Part shown: positions 755 through 58,754 of the stretch, in pieces | Layout of the letters: each line of letters begins with the position of its first letter | How positions within the stretch are numbered: the stretch's first letter is position 1 | Assembly: GCA_963920705.1 (NCBI GenBank) | Contig: OY987226.1 | Coordinates: 25,367,162-25,431,161, forward strand | Length of the DNA: 64,000 bases | Reading direction: 5' to 3' | From: Odiellus spinosus | Taxonomy: Eukaryota; Arthropoda; Arachnida; Opiliones; Phalangiidae | Program-made: the position numbers and the translations under genes | Notes under the pieces: model-generated | Databases searched by the model: none | Seen by the model: only the letters and a program-made list of their open reading frames with translations | What the model was told of the DNA's origin: nothing

Positions 755-1075
755 ACAAAATTGGACACACGCGCGATAGGACACAATATCGATGGGATAT
801 AATCTCGATGGGACGCAATCTCGACAGAACATAATGTCGATGCAACACAATCTTGATAGACCGTAATCTTCATGTACATAATCTCAAGTGGAATCTTTAT
901 CGATAGTGCACAACCTCGAAAGGACATTTTGTTTCCTTGCCCTTCTTGTAATATTTTAGGTAAGGTTACGTTAGTTAATCACTCGAACTACGTCATCCCT
1001 CCAACTAGTTAAACACTTGCTCTAACCCATTCCTCTTATAATATTATAGGTAAGGTTACGTTAGTAGAGTGCAAC
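755..1075. repeat. Short-word array with TTAGG-type core (locus A)
   Basis: From about 755 to 925 a word close to GGGACACAATCTCGATG recurs roughly ten times with 15-18 bp spacing and point variation. It is followed by a core (about 957-1070) containing two copies of TAGGTAAGGTTACGTTAG and the motif TCACTCGAACTA. The same core lies beside entirely different words near 34081, 55020 and 60617. No inverted word arm is visible on the far side, so this is probably a truncated copy of the element class described in the findings. No gene is seen here. Confidence 0.6.
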
Positions 1076-3286: not shown

Positions 3287-4218
3287 AAATTATACAAAAA
3301 CGTTGTTTTGCTTCGCACTTCAAAAAAGTGCATTTATAGGTAAGAATTTCAAACCCGTGAAGGGACAGAAATTATAAATTCACAGTGAAAGAAATATGAA
3401 AGTCACAGTCTAAGAAATCATAAAGCTATAATTATTATACAAAAACGTTGTTTTGCTTCGTACTTCAAAAATGTGCATTTAAAGGTTAGAATTTCAAACC
3501 CGTGAAGGGACAGAAATTATAAATTCACAGTGAAAGAAATATGAAAGTCACAGTCTAAGAAATCATAAAGCTATAATTATAATAATTAATATGAATAAAA
3601 AATTTACAAAAAAATGACGTATAAATTCGGCCTATCGAAACTTTTAATTATGCAGAAATCATTCTGTTGTAGAATTCACTCTTGGTAAGGGTAACTAAAA
3701 GCCAACTATGCGTGGAAAGGTAGAATAGCATAATACCAAATAGTTCCTGCCCGCGTTTTTAAAATGTTTAGTTGTTAGGATGGATGGTTGCAGTTTTCAG
3801 TTAGTAAAAGGAAACATTCGCCTCTTTATAAAGTTTCTAATCATTAAATCTACATAAGTAAAAGTTTCGATAGGCCGAATTTATACGTCATTTTTTTGTA
3901 AATTTTTTATTCATATTAATTATTATAATTATAGCTTTATGATTTCTTAGACTGTGACTTTCATATTTCTTTCAATGTGAATTTATAATTTCTGTCCCTT
4001 CACGGGTTTGAAATTCTAACCTTTAAATGCACATTTTTGAAGTACGAAGCAAAACAACGTTTTTGTATAATAATTATAGCTTTATGATTTCTTAGACTGT
4101 GACTTTCATATTTCTTTCACTGTGAATTTATAATTTCTGTCCCTTCACGGGTTTGAAATTCTTACCTATAAATGCACTTTTTTGAAGTGCGAAGCAAAAC
4201 AACGTTTTTGTATAATTT
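3287..4218. mobile_element. Foldback element with doubled arms
   Basis: The left arm (3287 to about 3640) and right arm (about 3870-4218) are reverse complements with only a few mismatches, around a spacer of roughly 230 bp. Each arm holds two tandem copies of a unit of about 145 bp that begins with ACAAAAACGTTGTTTTGC, continues with TTCGCAC or TTCGTAC, and carries AAACCCGTGAAGGGACA, so that motif occurs four times. A related element lies at 61911-62320. No coding capacity is seen. It ends about 90 bp beyond the likely polyadenylation signal of the ASS gene. I cannot assign a superfamily, and no clear target duplication is visible. Confidence 0.8.
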
Positions 4219-4306
4219 AATTTTGTTTAATCTAGTCATAATTATTCACATTATACAGACATTTCTCTATTTTAAAGACATTGAATCTTTATATATTTCC
4301 ACAATT

Positions 4307-4312
4307 TTTAAT
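4307..4312 (-). promoter_or_regulatory. Possible polyadenylation signal of ASS
   Basis: On the minus strand this reads ATTAAA, about 140 nt downstream of the ASS stop codon, followed by a TTGTGG-rich stretch. No AATAAA occurs between the stop codon and the foldback element at 4218. The signal is a common variant and its position is plausible, but nothing in the sequence proves it is used. Confidence 0.35.
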
Positions 4313-4449
4313 CAACATTAAACTATTATCATTATATAAATGAAATTTTATATTTTCTAATCGCAAAACTAAATTCAACTACACTCGTGATATTAATGAA
4401 CTATCCGTAACATCGAGTCTCTGTAAAGTATACGAAGCGGAATCCGGAA

Positions 4450-47710
<43,261 letters not shown>

Positions 47711-50522: not shown

Positions 50523-51800
50523 TTACAAAAATTGTTCGAAATGCATTCCGTCAGCGTTGATACACACTTGAGCCCGTCTAATAAAAGATTGTCTAACTCG
50601 TTCGAAGATCCCTTGTGTGTTGCGTATGGTTTCGCAGGCATCAATAATCCTTTGACGTAGATCTTCCACGTCACGCACTTCACTAACATAAACTAAGTCC
50701 TTAAGGTGGCCCCAAAGAAAGAAATCACAAGGGTTTAGGTCCGGAGATCGGTCTACCCCCATTTCGCCCAATTTATTTTCGCCCAATTTCATTTCGCCCA
50801 ATTCCCATTTCGCCCAGTTTCTTTTCGCACAATTTCATTTCGCCCAATTCCCATTTCGCCCAATTTCTTTTCGCCCAAATCCCACTTCGCCCAATCCCAT
50901 TTCGCCCAACCCCATTTGGCCCAATTTCTTTTCGCCCAATTCCCATTTGGCCCAATTCCCATTTTGCCCAATTCCCATTTGGCCTAATGTCTTCTCGCCC
51001 AATCTCGTTTCGCCCAATTTTGATTTGGACCAATCTCATTTTGCCCTTGTCACATTTTTCCACTTTTTCCCCCCAACCTAACCTAACCTAACCTAACCTA
51101 AATTAAATAAAAGTCACTTTTTTGGCCTACTAAGACTTTAAATTTTAAAAGGTTTAAGCTTTAATCGTTTTAGGCGAAAAGGGAAGAGAAATTTTTGGGT
51201 TGGGCGAAATGGGAATAGATAATTCTAGGCTAGCTGATAAAACGATTGGGCAAATTGGGATTGGGCGAATTGAGAATAGGAATTTTTAGTTTGGGCAAAA
51301 TGGGAAGAGCTAATTTAGGGCCAAATGATAAAGCGATTGGGCAAAGTAGGATTGGGCGAAATGGAAATAGATAATTTTGGTCCAAAAAAATCTTGGGCGA
51401 AATGGGAATAGATAATTTTGGGCGAAATGTTTTGGGCGAAAGGGGTACATACCCGGAGATCTGGCTGGCCACGCAACCGTTCCGCCACGACCAATCCACC
51501 TCAAAGGGAATGTTTCATTAAGGAAGGCCTTAACTAGGAGAGAAAATGAGATGGTGCACCGTCGTGCATAAACCACATGTCTCGTCTCAAGGCCAGTGGT
51601 ACGGCTTCAAGAAGCTCGAACAGATTGTCTTGAAGAAATCGGAGATATGCCTCACCATTAAGCCTTAGCTGCAAAAAGAATGGTCCAATTAAATGGTCAC
51701 CAACAATTCCGCACCAGACGTTTAAGTTGAATTGAACTTGGTGAGCCCTAACACTTGTAGCGTGGGGGTTTTGTTGCGCCCACTGATGCCTGTTGTGCAT
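50523..51800 (-). pseudogene. Mariner transposase fragment, left arm, interrupted
   Basis: From 51800 down: VWCGIVGDHLIGPFFLQLRL, FMHDGAPSHFLS (second catalytic Asp), then RWIGRGGTVAWPARSPG up to the insertion. It resumes at about 50745 with SPDLNPCDFFLWGHLKDLVY and ends FEQFL. The third catalytic Asp is the one in SPDLNPCD, at the insertion point. There is a frame break near 51535. Confidence 0.75.
50750..51452. mobile_element. Word-array element F, perfect 9-bp target duplication
   Basis: CCGGAGATC flanks it at 50741-50749 and 51453-51461, and the mariner right arm shows the uninterrupted site. The left half repeats TTCGCCCAATTCCCATTT words, the centre is CCTAACCTAACCTAACC (51075-51101), and the right half has inverted words (GGGCGAAATGGGAATAG). 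The ends are GGTCTACCCCCATTTC and the complement GTATGTACCCCTTTCG. It is 703 bp and non-coding; the GW-rich minus-strand ORFs are word translations. It has the clearest boundaries of the class. Confidence 0.88.
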
Positions 51801-51904
51801 GTTGAATATGTCATCACGGGAAAAATTGGCCTCATCCGTAACTAAAAGGTTTTGGGGTAAGTTGATGTCTTGTCAGTGGTTAATCGCTTAACATCAAGAC
51901 ATCA

Positions 51905-52371
51905 ATGTGCGGAATTGTTGGTGACCATTTAATTGGACCATTCTTTTTGCAGCCAAGGCTTAATGGTGAGGCATTTCTCCGATTTCTTCAAGACAATCTG
52001 TTAGAGCTTCTTGAAGACGTACCATTGGTCTTGAGACGAGACATGTGGTTTATGCACGACGGTGCACCACCTCTTTTTTCTATCCTAGTTAGGGCCTTCC
52101 TTAATGAAACATTCCCTTTGAGGTGGATTGGTCGTGGCGGAACGGTTGCGTGGCCAGCCAGATCTCCGAACCTAAACCCTTGTGATTTCTTTCTTTGGGG
52201 CCACCTTAAGGACTTAGTTTATGTTAGTGGAAGATCTACGTCAAAGGATTATTGATGCCTGCGAAACCATACGCAACACACCAGGGATCTTCGAACGAGT
52301 TAGGCAATCATTTATTAGACGGGCTCAAGTGTGTATCAACGCCGACGTAATACATTTCGAACAATTTTTGT
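51905..52371 (+). pseudogene. Mariner transposase fragment, right arm
   Basis: It reads CGIVGDHLIGPFFLQPRLNG, FMHDGAPPLFSIL, RWIGRGGTVAWPARSPNLNP and CDFFLWGHLKDLVYV, then shifts frame near 52235 before the conserved tail ending FEQFL at about 52371. The catalytic Asp of SPDLNP is Asn here. It is the inverted copy of the fragment on the left. Confidence 0.8.
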
Positions 52372-52919
52372 AAATACTTCTGATTATTATACAATTGATA
52401 ATTATGGTAATTAATAATGGTTTCTTGTAAAATTCCCTTTTCAACACCCGAAACACACGTAATAAACCACACTTTGAGTTCAAGTACTTCTGACCAAAGT
52501 TAATGATTGCACACTCCTAAACATTTCGTATTTTTGAGGACTATTTTCAAGAGCTCATAACTACGCAACGCAGCGCGTGAGACTAAAGGTTCATAAACCT
52601 TTTTCACTCAGTCTGACCCCACGAAAAACCCCTTCATTTTTTCTAGACCTTTCAGAAACACCCTGTATATTCTTTCTTGACTTGTACAGTTTTACTACCC
52701 GTTTGATGGAAAGGAGTATATAAATCCCTGATCGTAGATTACTGGAAAATATCCTGCCTACATTCTCTCTCATTTTTTGTTTATATTCTCTTTTTATAGT
52801 TTTTTTGCTTGTATTTACTTAATTATTTTTCACATATGTAACTTAATGGCATTAAAGCCGTAACCGACATAATTATTAAATCAAATCAATAAATTATTAT
52901 TATTATCATATTATAATAG

Positions 52920-53350
52920 TCTAAATTATAGGGCTGAAGAGTACTACCCAAGTAGAAGAACGCAGTGAATGTAAATTTCTTATACCATTAAAAATGTAGC
53001 TTGTCTACTGTTTAATAAATTCAATTTCAGTTTATCATTTTAGAAGCAATTTATAAAGCTCCGCTAAGCTTATGTTTTAACCCTTTCAGGCTCATTTCTC
53101 TCTATATTAATCTTTCATTATTTAAAACTTTATTTAACCATGAGAAGCACTTATACCCAACAAAAGCCTTAATTTTTATTCAAACTACCTTTCTCTTTAT
53201 TAACTCGATTTCAATTCGTTATCTATCTACAATTTTTCTTTATAATTTTAGAAACAATAAATATAAGCTCGGCTAAGCTTCTGTTTCAACCCTTTTGTAA
53301 CCCATTTTTTTCTATTACTTCATAAACCTTATCATTGGTAAATCAAACTT
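52920..53350. repeat. Dispersed repeat, copies 4 and 5
   Basis: It begins TAGGGCTGAAGAGTACTACC, then two copies of the AAGCAATTTATAAAGCTC and TTTCATTATTTAAAACTTT unit. It is related to 29396-29720 and 45895-46270. Confidence 0.6.
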
Positions 53351-53881
53351 TAAGTTAACAACAAGTTATACTCTGGGTTACGATGAAGCGAGTCAAAATT
53401 TGAACACGCTGCAAATTATGGCTGACGTACTAAAGCTTTTCGACTCATTGGGAAGAGCCCCGAAAATAGAGGATTTGCTGCCCCTCTCCCCCAACTTTAG
53501 TTTCAATCTCAAAAGGGCTAATTCAATTTCCGGATCTCGGTCGTTGTTGAGGTTTTAATTTTTCCTCGGGTGCGAAAGCTCTGACGACTCAATTTCTAGA
53601 ACCACATACAAATGGAAATATACCCGCTGTAAACTTGAAGGATCATTTACTTGTGACCTTATCAACCATTGTTTTTTGAATCTTTGAGAAGCACTCGTAC
53701 CCAACACTACCCTTAATGCTTAATTGCCATTGCAATGCACCATATCTCGTTGTTGAAGTAAAATTTAAAATCCACCATGGCAAAACGATGCTGACATGAA
53801 AATCTACTCAGTGTGAGACAGGCTTTAGGCTGCATTCGCAAAGGAATGGAAACCAGGAAAATTACTATGTAATGGAAAAGT

Positions 53882-53924
53882 CCAGCTTTCCGCTCCTTTG
53901 CGAAGGCAAGGAGCGGAAAGCTGG
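53882..53924. other. Perfect 17-bp hairpin
   Basis: CCAGCTTTCCGCTCCTT pairs exactly with AAGGAGCGGAAAGCTGG across a 9-base loop. It is GC-rich against its surroundings. Its role is unknown; it could be the core of a small MITE. Confidence 0.7.
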
Positions 53925-54093
53925 CGTCCCATATGGCGGCCAAGCCGACACAACGAATATAAGCCCTTAAGGGGCGAATAACTACAACCTGGTCACTTTC
54001 TACTAACTCGGCCAGTTATATAGAGGCTTTGTAAAAATACAAGGGTTATAATTTCCTTGTACTGACTTTAATAACTCTCAAATTTATCGCATT

Positions 54094-54095
<2 letters not shown>

Positions 54096-54128
<33 letters not shown>
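54096..54128. repeat. (AAT)n microsatellite
   Basis: About 11 uninterrupted ATA/AAT units. Confidence 0.9.
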
Positions 54129-54129
<1 letters not shown>

Positions 54130-54863
54130 TTATTTTTGGAAGGCCCTTAAATTTTTGAAGCTATACAAAATTTTGAACTAATATTATGGCTGACAAGCAA
54201 TTCTAGAGCTCAAAATGAGAGCAATTACTTCAAAATCGGACAACATATAAGACAGTATTTAAATAAACTATGAAATATATTTTTCGTTTTTTATACTATT
54301 AAAAATCCATATTCAAAAGTTTAACCTCTAGGTTTAATTTATTTTAAAGACTAAACATTTTTAATGCGAAAATATATAGATTTATTCTTTCCCGATATAT
54401 AACGTAGTTTTGTTCTGGAATATAATTAACGATAATTTTCATACGAAAAGTGGATTTTTGTCAACTAAGTACTTTCACGAAAAAGACAAAGCGAAACCAA
54501 CGGCACCACATCTAGTCACAGAAGGCGCGAGAATCAACTCTAGACTATGGGGACATGGTAATTCTTGAATTTTTGTTTTAAAAAATCGAAGATAGATATT
54601 ATAAAATACTAATTATAACTGACATACTGTTATATTTCTATTCCACCAAACACTTAATTTACAATGTCCTGACATGCGTACGCCCGTAACGTTTTCCAGA
54701 ATGTTCTAAAGGGTTACAGAAAAGACTGGAGTGATCAATAAAATTCTAGAAAAGTCTAGAACATTCTGGAAGATTAATTCTAGAAAGTTTTTACATTTTT
54801 TAAATTTTTTTGCGAATATGTATACAATTTTTGAATTGCTATTGAACTATATTATTTAGAGCG

Positions 54864-55222
54864 GTAAGGTTCCAATTGCGCAGTTCCCTTTTGCGCATTT
54901 CCCATAAGCGTATTTCCTTTTTGCGCAGTTTTTCACTTGCGCAGTTTTCCATTTCCGCAGGTTTCCATTTCCGCAGTTTCCATTTGCGCTTTTTTCATTT
55001 GCGCAGTGTTCATTTACAGGTTAGGTTAGTTAATCACTCGAACTAGCCTGTCCCTCTTGTTATATTATAAGTTAGGTTAGGTTAGGTTAGTTAATCACTC
55101 GAACTAGCCTGTTCCTCTTGTGGACAGCTCGAATGGCAAACTGCGCAAATGGAAAACTGCGCAAATGGCTACTGCGCAAATGAAAATGCGCAATTGGGAA
55201 ACTGCGCAAGCGGACGCAAACC
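54864..55222. mobile_element. Word-array element G (GCGCA words, shared core)
   Basis: It starts GTAAGGTTCCAATTGCGCA, has TTGCGCAGTTTCC words, two copies of the core TCACTCGAACTAGCCTG with GGTTAGGTTAGG (55020-55125), then inverted words (AACTGCGCAAATGGAAA), and ends CGGACGCAAACC. Same family as 33962-34802. The flanks TTTAGAGCG and TTTATAACT match only 6/9. Confidence 0.75.
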
Positions 55223-55312
55223 TTTATAACTCATAAAAAATCTGTGACAGCCTCATTTAATTCTAATTTCTCTGAAACATAAATTCCGAAAGAACTACAC
55301 TATGTTACTTAT

Positions 55313-56099
55313 GGGAAGCCCTCATATGAGCAGTTCCCATAATCGCGGTTCCCAAAACAGCAGTTCTCAAAACAGCGGTTCCCACAAACGCAGTTTATTC
55401 ATTATACCAGTTCCCATTACAGCGGTTCCCAAAACCACAGTGTTCCCATTACAGCGGTTCCCGAAATAGCGGATTGAAGTACTTGATGAATTTTTAGGGG
55501 CTGTACGTACGATTTTTAGAATGTTGACCTGCAACTTATATCTATCTACACAAGTGTTAGGTTAGACGTACATTCCCAAGGTTTGATGAAGGACGGATAC
55601 TTTCAATGGTTTTAATGAGTTAGGTTATGTTAGGTTAGGCTGGGATAGACATCCATTTCTATGGTTGGATGAAGTACGAATACTTAGTAATGGTTTAACA
55701 GGGTTAAGTTAGGTTTGGTAAGATATCCATTCCCAAGGTTTGATGAAGGGCGAATGCTTCGTATTGGGTGAGGTTAGGTTGCGTTAGGACATACATATAT
55801 CCCATGGTTCGATGAAGGACGATTTCTTTGTAATAGTTTGGCTTGGTATGTTAGGTACGAAGGACGATTACCTCGTATTGGGCTAGATAAGAGCTCCTTT
55901 CCCAAGTTTGTATCAGAGCCGAACATCGTATATTAGAGAAAAGCTCATAGCCCTAGAAAAACTCTGCTATTTCCCAAAAGAGCGGCCACCAGTTCCCTAA
56001 ACAGCGGCCGCTCTTATTAAAAGAGCAGTTTTGAGATTTGCCGCGGTTTTTTGGAAATCGAGGCTGCTATTTTGGGAACTGCTCTTCTGGGGTACACCC
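55313..56099. mobile_element. Word-array element H (AGCGGTTCCC words)
   Basis: Flanks GTTACTTAT (55304-55312) and GTTAATTAT (56100-56108) match 8/9. The left end GGGAAGCCCTCATATGAGC and complemented right end GGGTGTACCCCAGAAGAGC share AGAGCAGTTCCC or TGAGCAGTTCCC. Words such as ACAGCGGTTCCCAAAA fill both flanks. The centre (about 55555-55910) is a 90-bp tandem repeat with TTAGGTTAGG and AAGGTTTGATGAAGGACG, four to five diverged units. Non-coding. Confidence 0.75.
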
Positions 56100-56799: not shown

Positions 56800-56905
56800 C
56801 TGGGGTATAATCCGATTGGATCGAATTAAAAATATATTTTCCCAATTGATCGAATTAGAATTTTCCAATTCCATTGGCTTGAATTCCATTCATCCGAAGT
56901 TTAAA
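56800..56905. repeat. Small word cluster (ATTGGATCGAATT)
   Basis: It begins GGGGTATAATCCGATTGG and repeats words around GATCGAATTA and CCAATT to ATTCATCCGAAG. It resembles one arm of a word-array element (locus I). The boundaries are unclear. Confidence 0.4.
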
Positions 56906-58754
56906 TAATGTGAATTAAAGAATGCAATATAAAATTTAAATTAGTTTATTTCGCATAATTATTAGCCGTTAGGGGGATATTACTATATTATCCCCTAAAT
57001 AACACTGGTTATGGACTAATTAGGACCTCGGGAGTTCAGAAAAAATACTTAAAAGAATCTACGACCATCGGAAGTGGGAGAAAAACTTAATGGAAACTTT
57101 GCCCACTTGTTTTCATGGTTTAAGTCAACGATGTTGGAGAAGGAAATACCTTATGACGCGCTATTATGTCTGGTGCGGATATCAGTGCCTTACAAACCTT
57201 GTTGGTCTTGGAGTTCTCAATGGCATATGCACTATGATGAGCATCCACAAGATGGCGTCAAATTTCTCAAATTATTCCATTAAGTACAACTTCATCACTA
57301 TGTAGAGCTTTCGCCTCTCAGTTGATTCTTGGGCGTGATACTATTGCTTTTGTGCAAACTTTTTCATGATCCGGAAAGTACTTCCTTTCGCACGAAAACA
57401 TAGTTAAAACAAACAACGTCATTTATTGGAAATAAATATATGTTTTAGTAATTTTAATTTTGATTTTTTTTTAAAACTAATCAATCCAGAAGTGTACAAT
57501 CCATACGGCTTTTTAATAGTATGGAAAAACTAAAACTGTAATCCATAATCCTTTTCCAAAAATTTTGAAAACCTCACTTTAAGTAATGTAGATATTTATC
57601 TACTTAAATCAACATATATAACAATAAATTCACAGAATCCTTTTGTTTCATAGGTCGAAATTATCCATTTTTTGTAAAAACATTTAACCTCATCATAAGT
57701 TTATAACTTAAGTTATAAACTTACGACCTTATGAATTTTATTTTTGAGTATAGTGAAGTAAAACCATAAACTAAAATTTTAAAAATATTGTATTGCGATT
57801 TCTCTAAGAATTTTTAAAATCGGACCTTTTCCGGGTAACTATCTTTTTTAAGGGTGCATATGCTCAACAAACTGTTTTCTGTATGCTATACATTTACGAT
57901 AGTTTTATGGATTAGGATCGAAGTGATCGACTTTCAAATGAACGAAACGAATAGTGGGTCAAAACTCACTTAAACTAACTTTTGTAAGCATTTTTCGATG
58001 ATTTGAAAGTCGAAAAATCGGGGCCGCCGAGGATGAAGATCTCCATAAGGGATAAAACCGTTTAGTAAAACTCGTTCCATCCCCTTTGCAGCCATTCACC
58101 GGAGGAAAAACGTAGTAGTATACAGAGTCGATACAAAATAGTTCATGTCTGCGGGCGCAGAACTCGGAATTTGTTTAACTTTTATTAATTGGATAGATAT
58201 ACTGAATTAAATTCAGATATTATTCGTTTGGTTAAAAAAGACTATTTATTCATTCAGTTAACTAAATCCAAAGATTATCCCCTTTTGATAATACGTACGC
58301 GTATCTATTTTTTATTCTAGAGCAGTATCCGAGCAATACGTTCGGTTAAGAAAATTAAAAAAAAAAAAAAAAAATGGTTATTTCTTTTTATTGAAACGGA
58401 GGTATGATTATTATGTCTTAAAAAAAATATTTTTAAAATAAGGTAAAATCTTACCCAATCACCGAACTATTCACATTGAAAGACTACGTGTCTCTAAGAA
58501 GGTGTTTTCCTCGATTAGGAACTGAACGTCCGGTCTTTTGTCCTAAAAATTATGTTCTTTTATTTATTTTTGTCTATATCGTATGAATTGTTGCATAACA
58601 TGATGAAATATAATTTAATATACAAGATGTTTGATGTTGAAAATATTCAAGGATCTTTTCTTCTTTGGGCTGCCGTTTTAGAGTTAATTGATATGAATTA
58701 ATAATTACTTTCGTTTCCTAATTATTAAGCTATAAAATATGTATCATGGTTAAA
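56906..58754. other. No gene seen
   Basis: Short overlapping ORFs at 57074-57305 lack recognisable motifs. An A run lies near 58358-58374. Confidence 0.4.

Follow-up and report, generated by a model that had tools for sequence, protein, structure and literature searches.

Regarding short tandem repeats that stand in inverted orientation around telomere-like sequence, a stretch of 64,000 nucleotides from Odiellus spinosus (contig OY987226.1, positions 25,367,162 to 25,431,161 of the forward strand; hereafter the window) raises the question of what such arrays are and how they spread. The window contains six complete inverted arrays, with differing short words around a TTAGG/CCTAA centre, and three half-elements; the nine together make up 10% of its length, and 11 of its 12 exact TTAGGTTAGG positions (overlaps counted, both strands) lie inside them. 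A sequence-only reading had pointed out the complete arrays now placed at 16870, 29760, 33961, 50750, 54863 and 55313 with their differing words and TTAGG core, together with half-elements now placed near 755, 44689 and 56800, and had taken the design for a class of transposons; all of these arrays are present in the sequence. The analysis centred on the element at 50750..51453 (E50750). There is little doubt that such elements belong to Phantom-type Mutator-like element (MULE) lineages as foldback-type members, most of them non-autonomous. This explanation rests on sharply defined ends that the copies share, on target duplications and empty sites, on a gene-bearing copy (L052) with the same ends and on the occurrence of other words beside more distant transposases. 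Copies, paralogs and gene-bearing relatives were all compared within the host's own genome (443 Mb in 286 contigs, with the window on contig C2).

E50750 is 704 bp long on the plus strand, with the ends GGTCTACCCCC...GGGGTACATACC fixed by an empty-site alignment and by 30 loci sharing both ends. Its left array of the 15-bp word CATTTCGCCCAATTT (50750..51046, found by Tandem Repeats Finder, TRF) is followed by a (CCTAA)n tract (51073..51101) and by a right arm in which the word is inverted (51170..51453), and the element folds far better than its dinucleotide shuffles (z -8.7, with 0 of 20 shuffles as good). It sits inside a fragment that reads as Tc1/mariner-type, and an inverted partner of that fragment on the minus strand (51919..52385) represents the empty site: the joined flanks with one target copy match this paralog at 93% over 481 columns, and the junction is unbroken. 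A genome search in which the best 40 of 1200 candidates were scored gave 39 relatives besides E50750 itself. In 29 of these the match starts no more than 10 bases from the left end, and in all 39 it ends within 8 bases of the right end. Among 30 fetched loci (its own included), the median pairwise divergence is 3.2% and the length 663-739 bp, and both array length and the number of CCTAA units (2 to 8) vary. Exact left ends occur at least 212 times in the genome (control 1; the pattern demands no C 13 bases upstream) and exact right ends at least 182 times (control 0; no G 13 bases downstream). Because of the empty sites, the copy number, the target-site duplications (TSDs) and the gene-bearing copy, E50750 and kindred arrays are mobile elements, as had been claimed; a presence/absence contrast, which the sequence-only reading had wanted to see between relatives, was found between paralogs, several sites having an uninterrupted paralog within the same genome.

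E50750 is flanked by two identical copies of CGGAGATC (50742..50749 and 51454..51461; 8/8) when its right end is placed at ...ACATACC, and among the 30 loci, with ends GGTCTACC...ACATACC, agreement between target copies peaks at exactly 8 bp. A perfect 9-bp duplication had been described here; its presence and perfection hold and its length does not, since one shared C creates the apparent ninth base, and a 9-bp TSD was dropped for this element. The 9/9 duplication TAAAATAAT of E16870 (16870..19118, with the right end at 19118) and the 8/9 duplication GTTACTTAT/GTTAATTAT of E55313 (55313..56099) agree with the first description, that of E33961 (33961..34802) is imperfect as described and reads 7/8 in place of 7/9, and E29760 (29760..30684) shows GGTATATG at 8/8; the ends of E29760 and the right end of E16870 were set with the TSD in view. 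At fixed boundaries and with satellites excluded, chance gives 8/8 at 6.5e-5, at least 7/8 at 8e-4, at least 6/8 at 7e-3, 9/9 at 5e-6 and at least 8/9 at 2e-4. A cruder null, which keeps satellites and takes the best of 8-11 bp, puts each element at p 0.006-0.034 when the ends are fixed and at 0.10-0.34 when they may move by four bases on each side. The TSDs of the window are thus modest evidence, and the genome-wide copies carry the case. Copy and TSD analysis covered two families, those of E50750 and of E54863 (the GCGCA family). In the former, 57 of 65 distinct sites have the 8-bp duplication (29 perfect, 28 with one fixed type of change). E54863 (54863..55222, plus strand) has the word GCGCAGTTT and the ends GGTAAGGTTCC...GGACGCAAACC, and its relatives, among the best 40 of 1650 candidates and with E54863 itself excluded, are 81-92% alike; the 20 fetched loci include duplications of 8/8 (six), 7/8 (two), 6/8 (two), 9/9 (three) and 8/9 (one). 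The GCGCA family therefore duplicates 8 or 9 bp, and across the genome copies TSDs lie far above chance, which was the comparison the earlier reading had proposed.

The transposase class is indicated by L052, which was found where a partial E50750 match (C18) adjoined a MULE match. This element of 2305 bp (3604-5908 of its locus) has the E50750 ends, a left word array, the TSD AAATAACT (8/8) and a right arm 97.4% identical to 51102-51453 of the window over 352 bp. On the minus strand between the arms lie a FLYWCH frame (PF04500, 4.8e-8) and, 3' of it, a MULE frame (PF10551, 2.1e-9), both above the Pfam cut-off; of the three frames scanned against Pfam, the third matched no family. The Phantom subclass is defined by an N-terminal FLYWCH finger plus a MULE domain (PMC3169594). 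By this definition L052 has Phantom architecture, because FLYWCH and MULE frames lie inside an element with E50750 ends; the class follows from the domain content of two separate frames and not from a tree. L052 contains the MULE DDE domain, the TSD length falls within the 8-11 bp of the MULE superfamily, and a centre flanked by long inverted arms that consist of short tandem repeats is the architecture of foldback elements. As a non-autonomous foldback element, E50750 is related to a Phantom-type Mutator transposon, and it looks like an internal-deletion relative of L052. The frames between shared ends bear out the Mutator-like mobilisation that had been suggested from the letters, and a transposase gene bounded by similar ends, which was to be sought in the same genome, exists in L052. 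Merlin, the other suggestion, gained no support; the L052 frames match MULE, while the IS1595-type family itself was not searched in the genome. A Galileo-like P-type transposase with a THAP domain was also dropped, the L052 frames having given only MULE and FLYWCH. Another locus, L041, was rejected as a gene-bearing copy: it has FLYWCH/MULE-like frames (by reading), a TTAGG module and an array nearby, and no clear end pair. The same locus holds a further inverted element (L041:2614-3814) with ends GGTAGGG...CCCTACC and TTCTGAACG-like words.

A genome search with the MULE frame of L052 (260 amino acids) gave 71 matches, ten of which were fetched with 1.5 kb on each side; they represent nine distinct elements, L082 being a second match in the element of L076 and L073 being L052. 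L077 (60% identical to the L052 frame) has inverted arms of TTCGCCCAATCCCA, which is near-identical to the L052 word, and ends GGTTCTACCCC/GGTTAGTTCCC with a TSD of 8/8 by scan, a result weaker than it appears, as about 70 x 150 position pairs were scanned under a required 3-base end match and AACAAAAC is simple sequence. L074 (61%) and L078 (66%) have inverted TTCTCCCAATTCCCAT-type arms on both sides, and L075 (68%), L076 (69%) and L079 (65%) have the TTCTCCCAATTCCCAT-type word on one or both sides, L075 and L079 on one side within the 1.5 kb viewed. L081 (43%) has inverted arms of TCGGTCGAATGGGAT, which is also the TRF unit of E16870. Greater transposase distance thus seems to go with a different word, if only as a loose trend. 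In Galileo, the repeats of the arms contain multiple THAP binding sites (PMC3688188; cited in PMC4079207). With this analogue, and because words change with transposase distance, the words are most likely arrays of putative transposase binding sites. As an additional observation, an array of the AGCGGTTCCC type, the word of E55313, adjoins the MULE match in L074, L076, L078, L080 and L082, as if co-copied, L076 and L082 being the same place.

In the mechanism proposed, each lineage would have its own word of about 15 bp, repeated in both arms beside short GGT...CCC-type ends. The transposase would bind the words, pair the two ends and join them to a staggered target, duplicating 8 bp or, for the GCGCA family, 8 or 9 bp. 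E50750 and other short copies may have arisen by internal deletion, and E50750 would have been mobilised by L052 or a close relative.

In 28 of the 65 sites of the E50750 family the duplication is imperfect in one particular way: starting at its sixth base, the right target copy has G, GG or GGT, frequently with C next, and GGTC is the start of the element's own left end. The 30 loci represent 25 distinct sites, of which 8 have a perfect TSD, 13 carry this scar (mismatches only at positions 6-8) and 4 are other. The pattern was defined on these sites, and 40 further ones came from pairing 100 listed left ends (of 212) with 78 used from 100 listed right ends (of 182); 53 copies paired within 400-1200 bp, unpaired ends being dropped, and gave 51 sites (26 perfect, 20 scarred, 5 other). 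Of the 25 imperfect paired sites, a uniform model expects 0.9 to fit the pattern by chance (P ~4e-33). The 40 added sites comprise 21 perfect, 15 scarred and 4 other, so that the pooled 65 comprise 29, 28 and 8; among the 8 others, one flank recurs at another copy in two cases, and the flanks are unrelated in one. None of the sites has mismatches confined to positions 1-3, and hence no mirror scar is seen on the left. Among the 90 distinct flanks in the 100 listed right ends, C follows GGT in 19 of 24, compared with 9 of 66 other flanks, and T comes next in merely one of the 19 GGTC flanks, so the scar tract is at most about GGTC. The string GAAAKGGGTACATACC-N5-GGT has 66 matches in the genome (control 0); in 14 of them the five bases are identical, CTAAT, and these matches probably go back to a single insertion that was multiplied. 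This right flank, CTAATGGTCCCAT, is of the GGT type, and the fetched L044, L050 and L051 have no left end within 1.3 kb. At four scarred sites with empty-site paralogs (L013, L021, L027 and L038), the paralog has the left base at every difference in all four, so the right copy was rewritten; these alignments reach 88% (347 columns), 81% (53), 72% (393) and 80% (174), with L021 weak alone and with a query that carried the left copy. The idea that the right end truly runs on into the flank was abandoned, since the five bases are not constant from site to site and agree with the left target copy. Outside the scar pattern, the target copies of L028 differ at positions 4-5, and there the paralogs resemble the right copy, the left one seeming to have changed. 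The GCGCA family shows no scar tract in its 14 loci with a TSD.

Three origins of the scar were weighed. In the first, the gap in the target would be misrepaired while the element integrates, either through a template switch or because the left 3' end is extended along the right flank; this would need no circle and has a little less than an even chance of being correct. It agrees with the assembly, in which a tandem or circle-like junction, GTACATACC-N3-12-GGTCTACC, has 0 exact matches (free circles being invisible there), and with the divergence of scarred copies, which are not more diverged than unscarred ones (mean 0.018 for 13 sites against 0.023 for 8; p 0.18); the latter comparison also left the idea of scars as marks of older copies unsupported. 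By itself, integration repair leaves the fixed 5 nt, the limit of about 4 nt and the one-sidedness unexplained. It is the main rival to a second, tentative proposal, that the GGT(C) 5 nt from the right end may be the fossil of an IS256-like asymmetric strand transfer and that the family uses or attempts a copy-out/paste-in route via a circle. In IS256 and ISCth4, a MULE-related transposase with an 8-bp TSD carries out strand transfer asymmetrically, one end being joined to flanking DNA beside the other (PMC7780238). The 3' end of the left end would similarly attack the flank of its own right end to form a figure-eight, and failed events would be cut back near the joint, leaving 1-4 nt of the left end. 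Neither a tandem junction in the assembly nor an age difference accompanies the scar, its spacer is 5 and not 6-8, it is one-sided where ISCth4 reacts both ways, and it is absent in the GCGCA family, all of which speaks against strand transfer. Last, a preference for targets with GGTC, followed by change of the left copy, is very improbable, having nothing beyond the pattern itself in its favour and conflicting with the four paralogs that keep the left base.

Regarding the TTAGG/CCTAA centre, 8 of the 9 distinct elements among the ten relatives, L052 included, have a sense TTAGGTTAG tract 5' of the MULE frame; in L052 the tract lies between the FLYWCH and MULE frames. The distance from tract to match start is 425-500 bp in L073 (= L052), L074, L076, L078 and L079. 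It is about 960-990 bp for both L075 and L081, while L077 has 440 bp, with a match that starts no earlier than residue 86. An additional antisense tract lies further 3', near the AGCGGTTCCC array, in L074, L076/L082 and L078. Because the sense tract recurs in this position, the TTAGG centre is probably inherited from gene-bearing elements, and the tract in the middle of short copies would be a remnant and not a new capture. Capture of telomeric DNA at breaks, through telomerase or break repair, is unlikely in view of this recurrence, although several observations suit it: the (CCTAA)n tract of E50750 lies at the internal deletion junction relative to L052 and its length varies among copies, TTAGG is the arthropod telomere repeat (PMC8977481), and break-associated telomeric insertions are described in vertebrates (PMC8537989). 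The GTTAATCACTCGAACTA module of the arrays at 54863, 33961 and 755 has relatives near the MULE loci L001 and L009, and a 56-bp tandem unit with TTAGG and GTTAATCACTCGAACT at L041:6087-6303 is related to the core of the same three arrays.

Several results weigh against assigning all the arrays to Phantom-type lineages that carry their own word and tract. The words of L077 and L052 are nearly the same despite 60% frames, so word and transposase divergence are not strictly parallel; the MULE frame of L052 has an in-frame stop, and this copy may therefore be inactive; and none of the gene-bearing copies that were found belongs to the GCGCA, GATCGA or AGCGGTTCCC words. The first ten PF10551 loci (L001-L010) have no long inverted arms within 1.5 kb, and a TTAGG tract only in L001 and L009, antisense in both. 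L080 lacks the TTAGGTTAG tract and lies near a GCGCA array of unclear relation, the TSD of E54863 is merely 6/8, and 6 of the 20 GCGCA loci have no clear TSD. Satellite-like arrays that grew in place by slippage and only resemble transposons are scarcely credible: unit number does differ between copies, as slippage would have it, whereas the empty sites, sharp common ends, 8-bp TSD and gene-bearing copy contradict it.

The sequence-only reading knew of no named family with this design, and this does not stand, as Foldback elements, Tm1 in particular, have it. Drosophila Foldback (FB/NOF) and sea-urchin TU have a centre between long inverted arms built of short tandem repeats; these are likened here by architecture only. 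In Tm1, a Mutator/Foldback family of root-knot nematodes, the arms consist of 13-15 bp words in tandem, the outer 7-mers are asymmetric, the transposase is of Phantom type and the TSDs measure 9 bp, in contrast to 8, or 8/9, here (PMC3169594). Likewise alike are the many short copies of Tm1, a paralogous empty site and, in M. incognita, one gene-bearing copy with FLYWCH and MULE, as in L052. The outer motifs, one of which is CCTACCC, are alike in kind; the Tm1 word CGATTCAGTATCCGC and motifs CGGTTAA/CCTACCC are not those of the present elements (PMC3169594). A TTAGG tract or flank scar is undescribed in the accessible parts of that paper, and both are present here; a further difference from Tm1 is that the present genome harbours several lineages whose words differ. 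Foldback arms with internal tandem repeats are known from Galileo (PMC3688188, PMC3573991) and from Tetris, with TSDs of 8-10 bp (PMC4079207); Galileo has a P-type transposase, in contrast to FLYWCH plus MULE here. Muta1 of Aedes aegypti, an insect MULE, has TSDs of 8 or 9 bp, as the GCGCA family does, and its excision and reinsertion were demonstrated in yeast, word arrays being unmentioned in the available text (PMC5225508). ISCth4 is bacterial, with spacers of 6-8 bp and circle junctions in either direction (PMC7780238), as opposed to one-sided scar-like traces with a 5-nt spacer here. The MULE loci L001, L006, L007 and L010 contain minisatellites of 24- and 27-bp units, which recall the Rehavkus group listed in PMC6446971. 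Literature searches, largely of non-subscription papers, turned up no element that has these words, a TTAGG tract that recurs, or scars of this type. Apparently new are the differing words across related lineages, the shared telomere-like tract and the four-letter scar often present in one family.

The remaining elements of the window, all on the plus strand, follow the same plan. E55313 has AGCGGTTCCC words and the ends GGGAAGCCC / GGGTGTACCCC, E29760 has GATCGA words, and E33961 is a second GCGCA-word element, in which a piece with CGAATGGG words (~34420-34640, by reading) is nested. E16870, itself a CGAATGGG-word element, holds another inverted-repeat insert (~17487-18373), GGGTGGTGGCGGGTAATTCCGTCC...GGACGGAATTACCCACCACCACC, with several GGACGGAATT words and flanks that suggest a 2-bp TA target (by reading). 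The half-elements are the left half of a GCGCA-word element (44689..44850), a half with CGATGGGACACAAT-like words and the TTAGG/GTTAATCACTCGAACTA module (755..1065), and one with GATCGAATT words starting with CTGGGGTATAATCC (56800..56920). In addition, an 18-bp satellite, TTCACTAGACATTCGAAC, occupies 6158-14541 in 466 copies and has at least four open frames, counting the two strands together, and minus-strand frames at 24228-25420 resemble a DDE-type transposon gene (by reading).

Phantom-type lineages with different words in one genome provide a natural series in which the co-change of transposase and presumed binding site can be followed, and the same series bears on whether the arrays stop lineages from mobilising each other's copies. 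If the strand-transfer explanation is true, the one-sided scar would preserve traces of this step throughout the genome for a eukaryotic Mutator element, and one would expect circles whose junction is N5. The recurring TTAGG tract implies that telomere-like repeats inside this genome can be parts of transposons and need not be remnants of telomeres.

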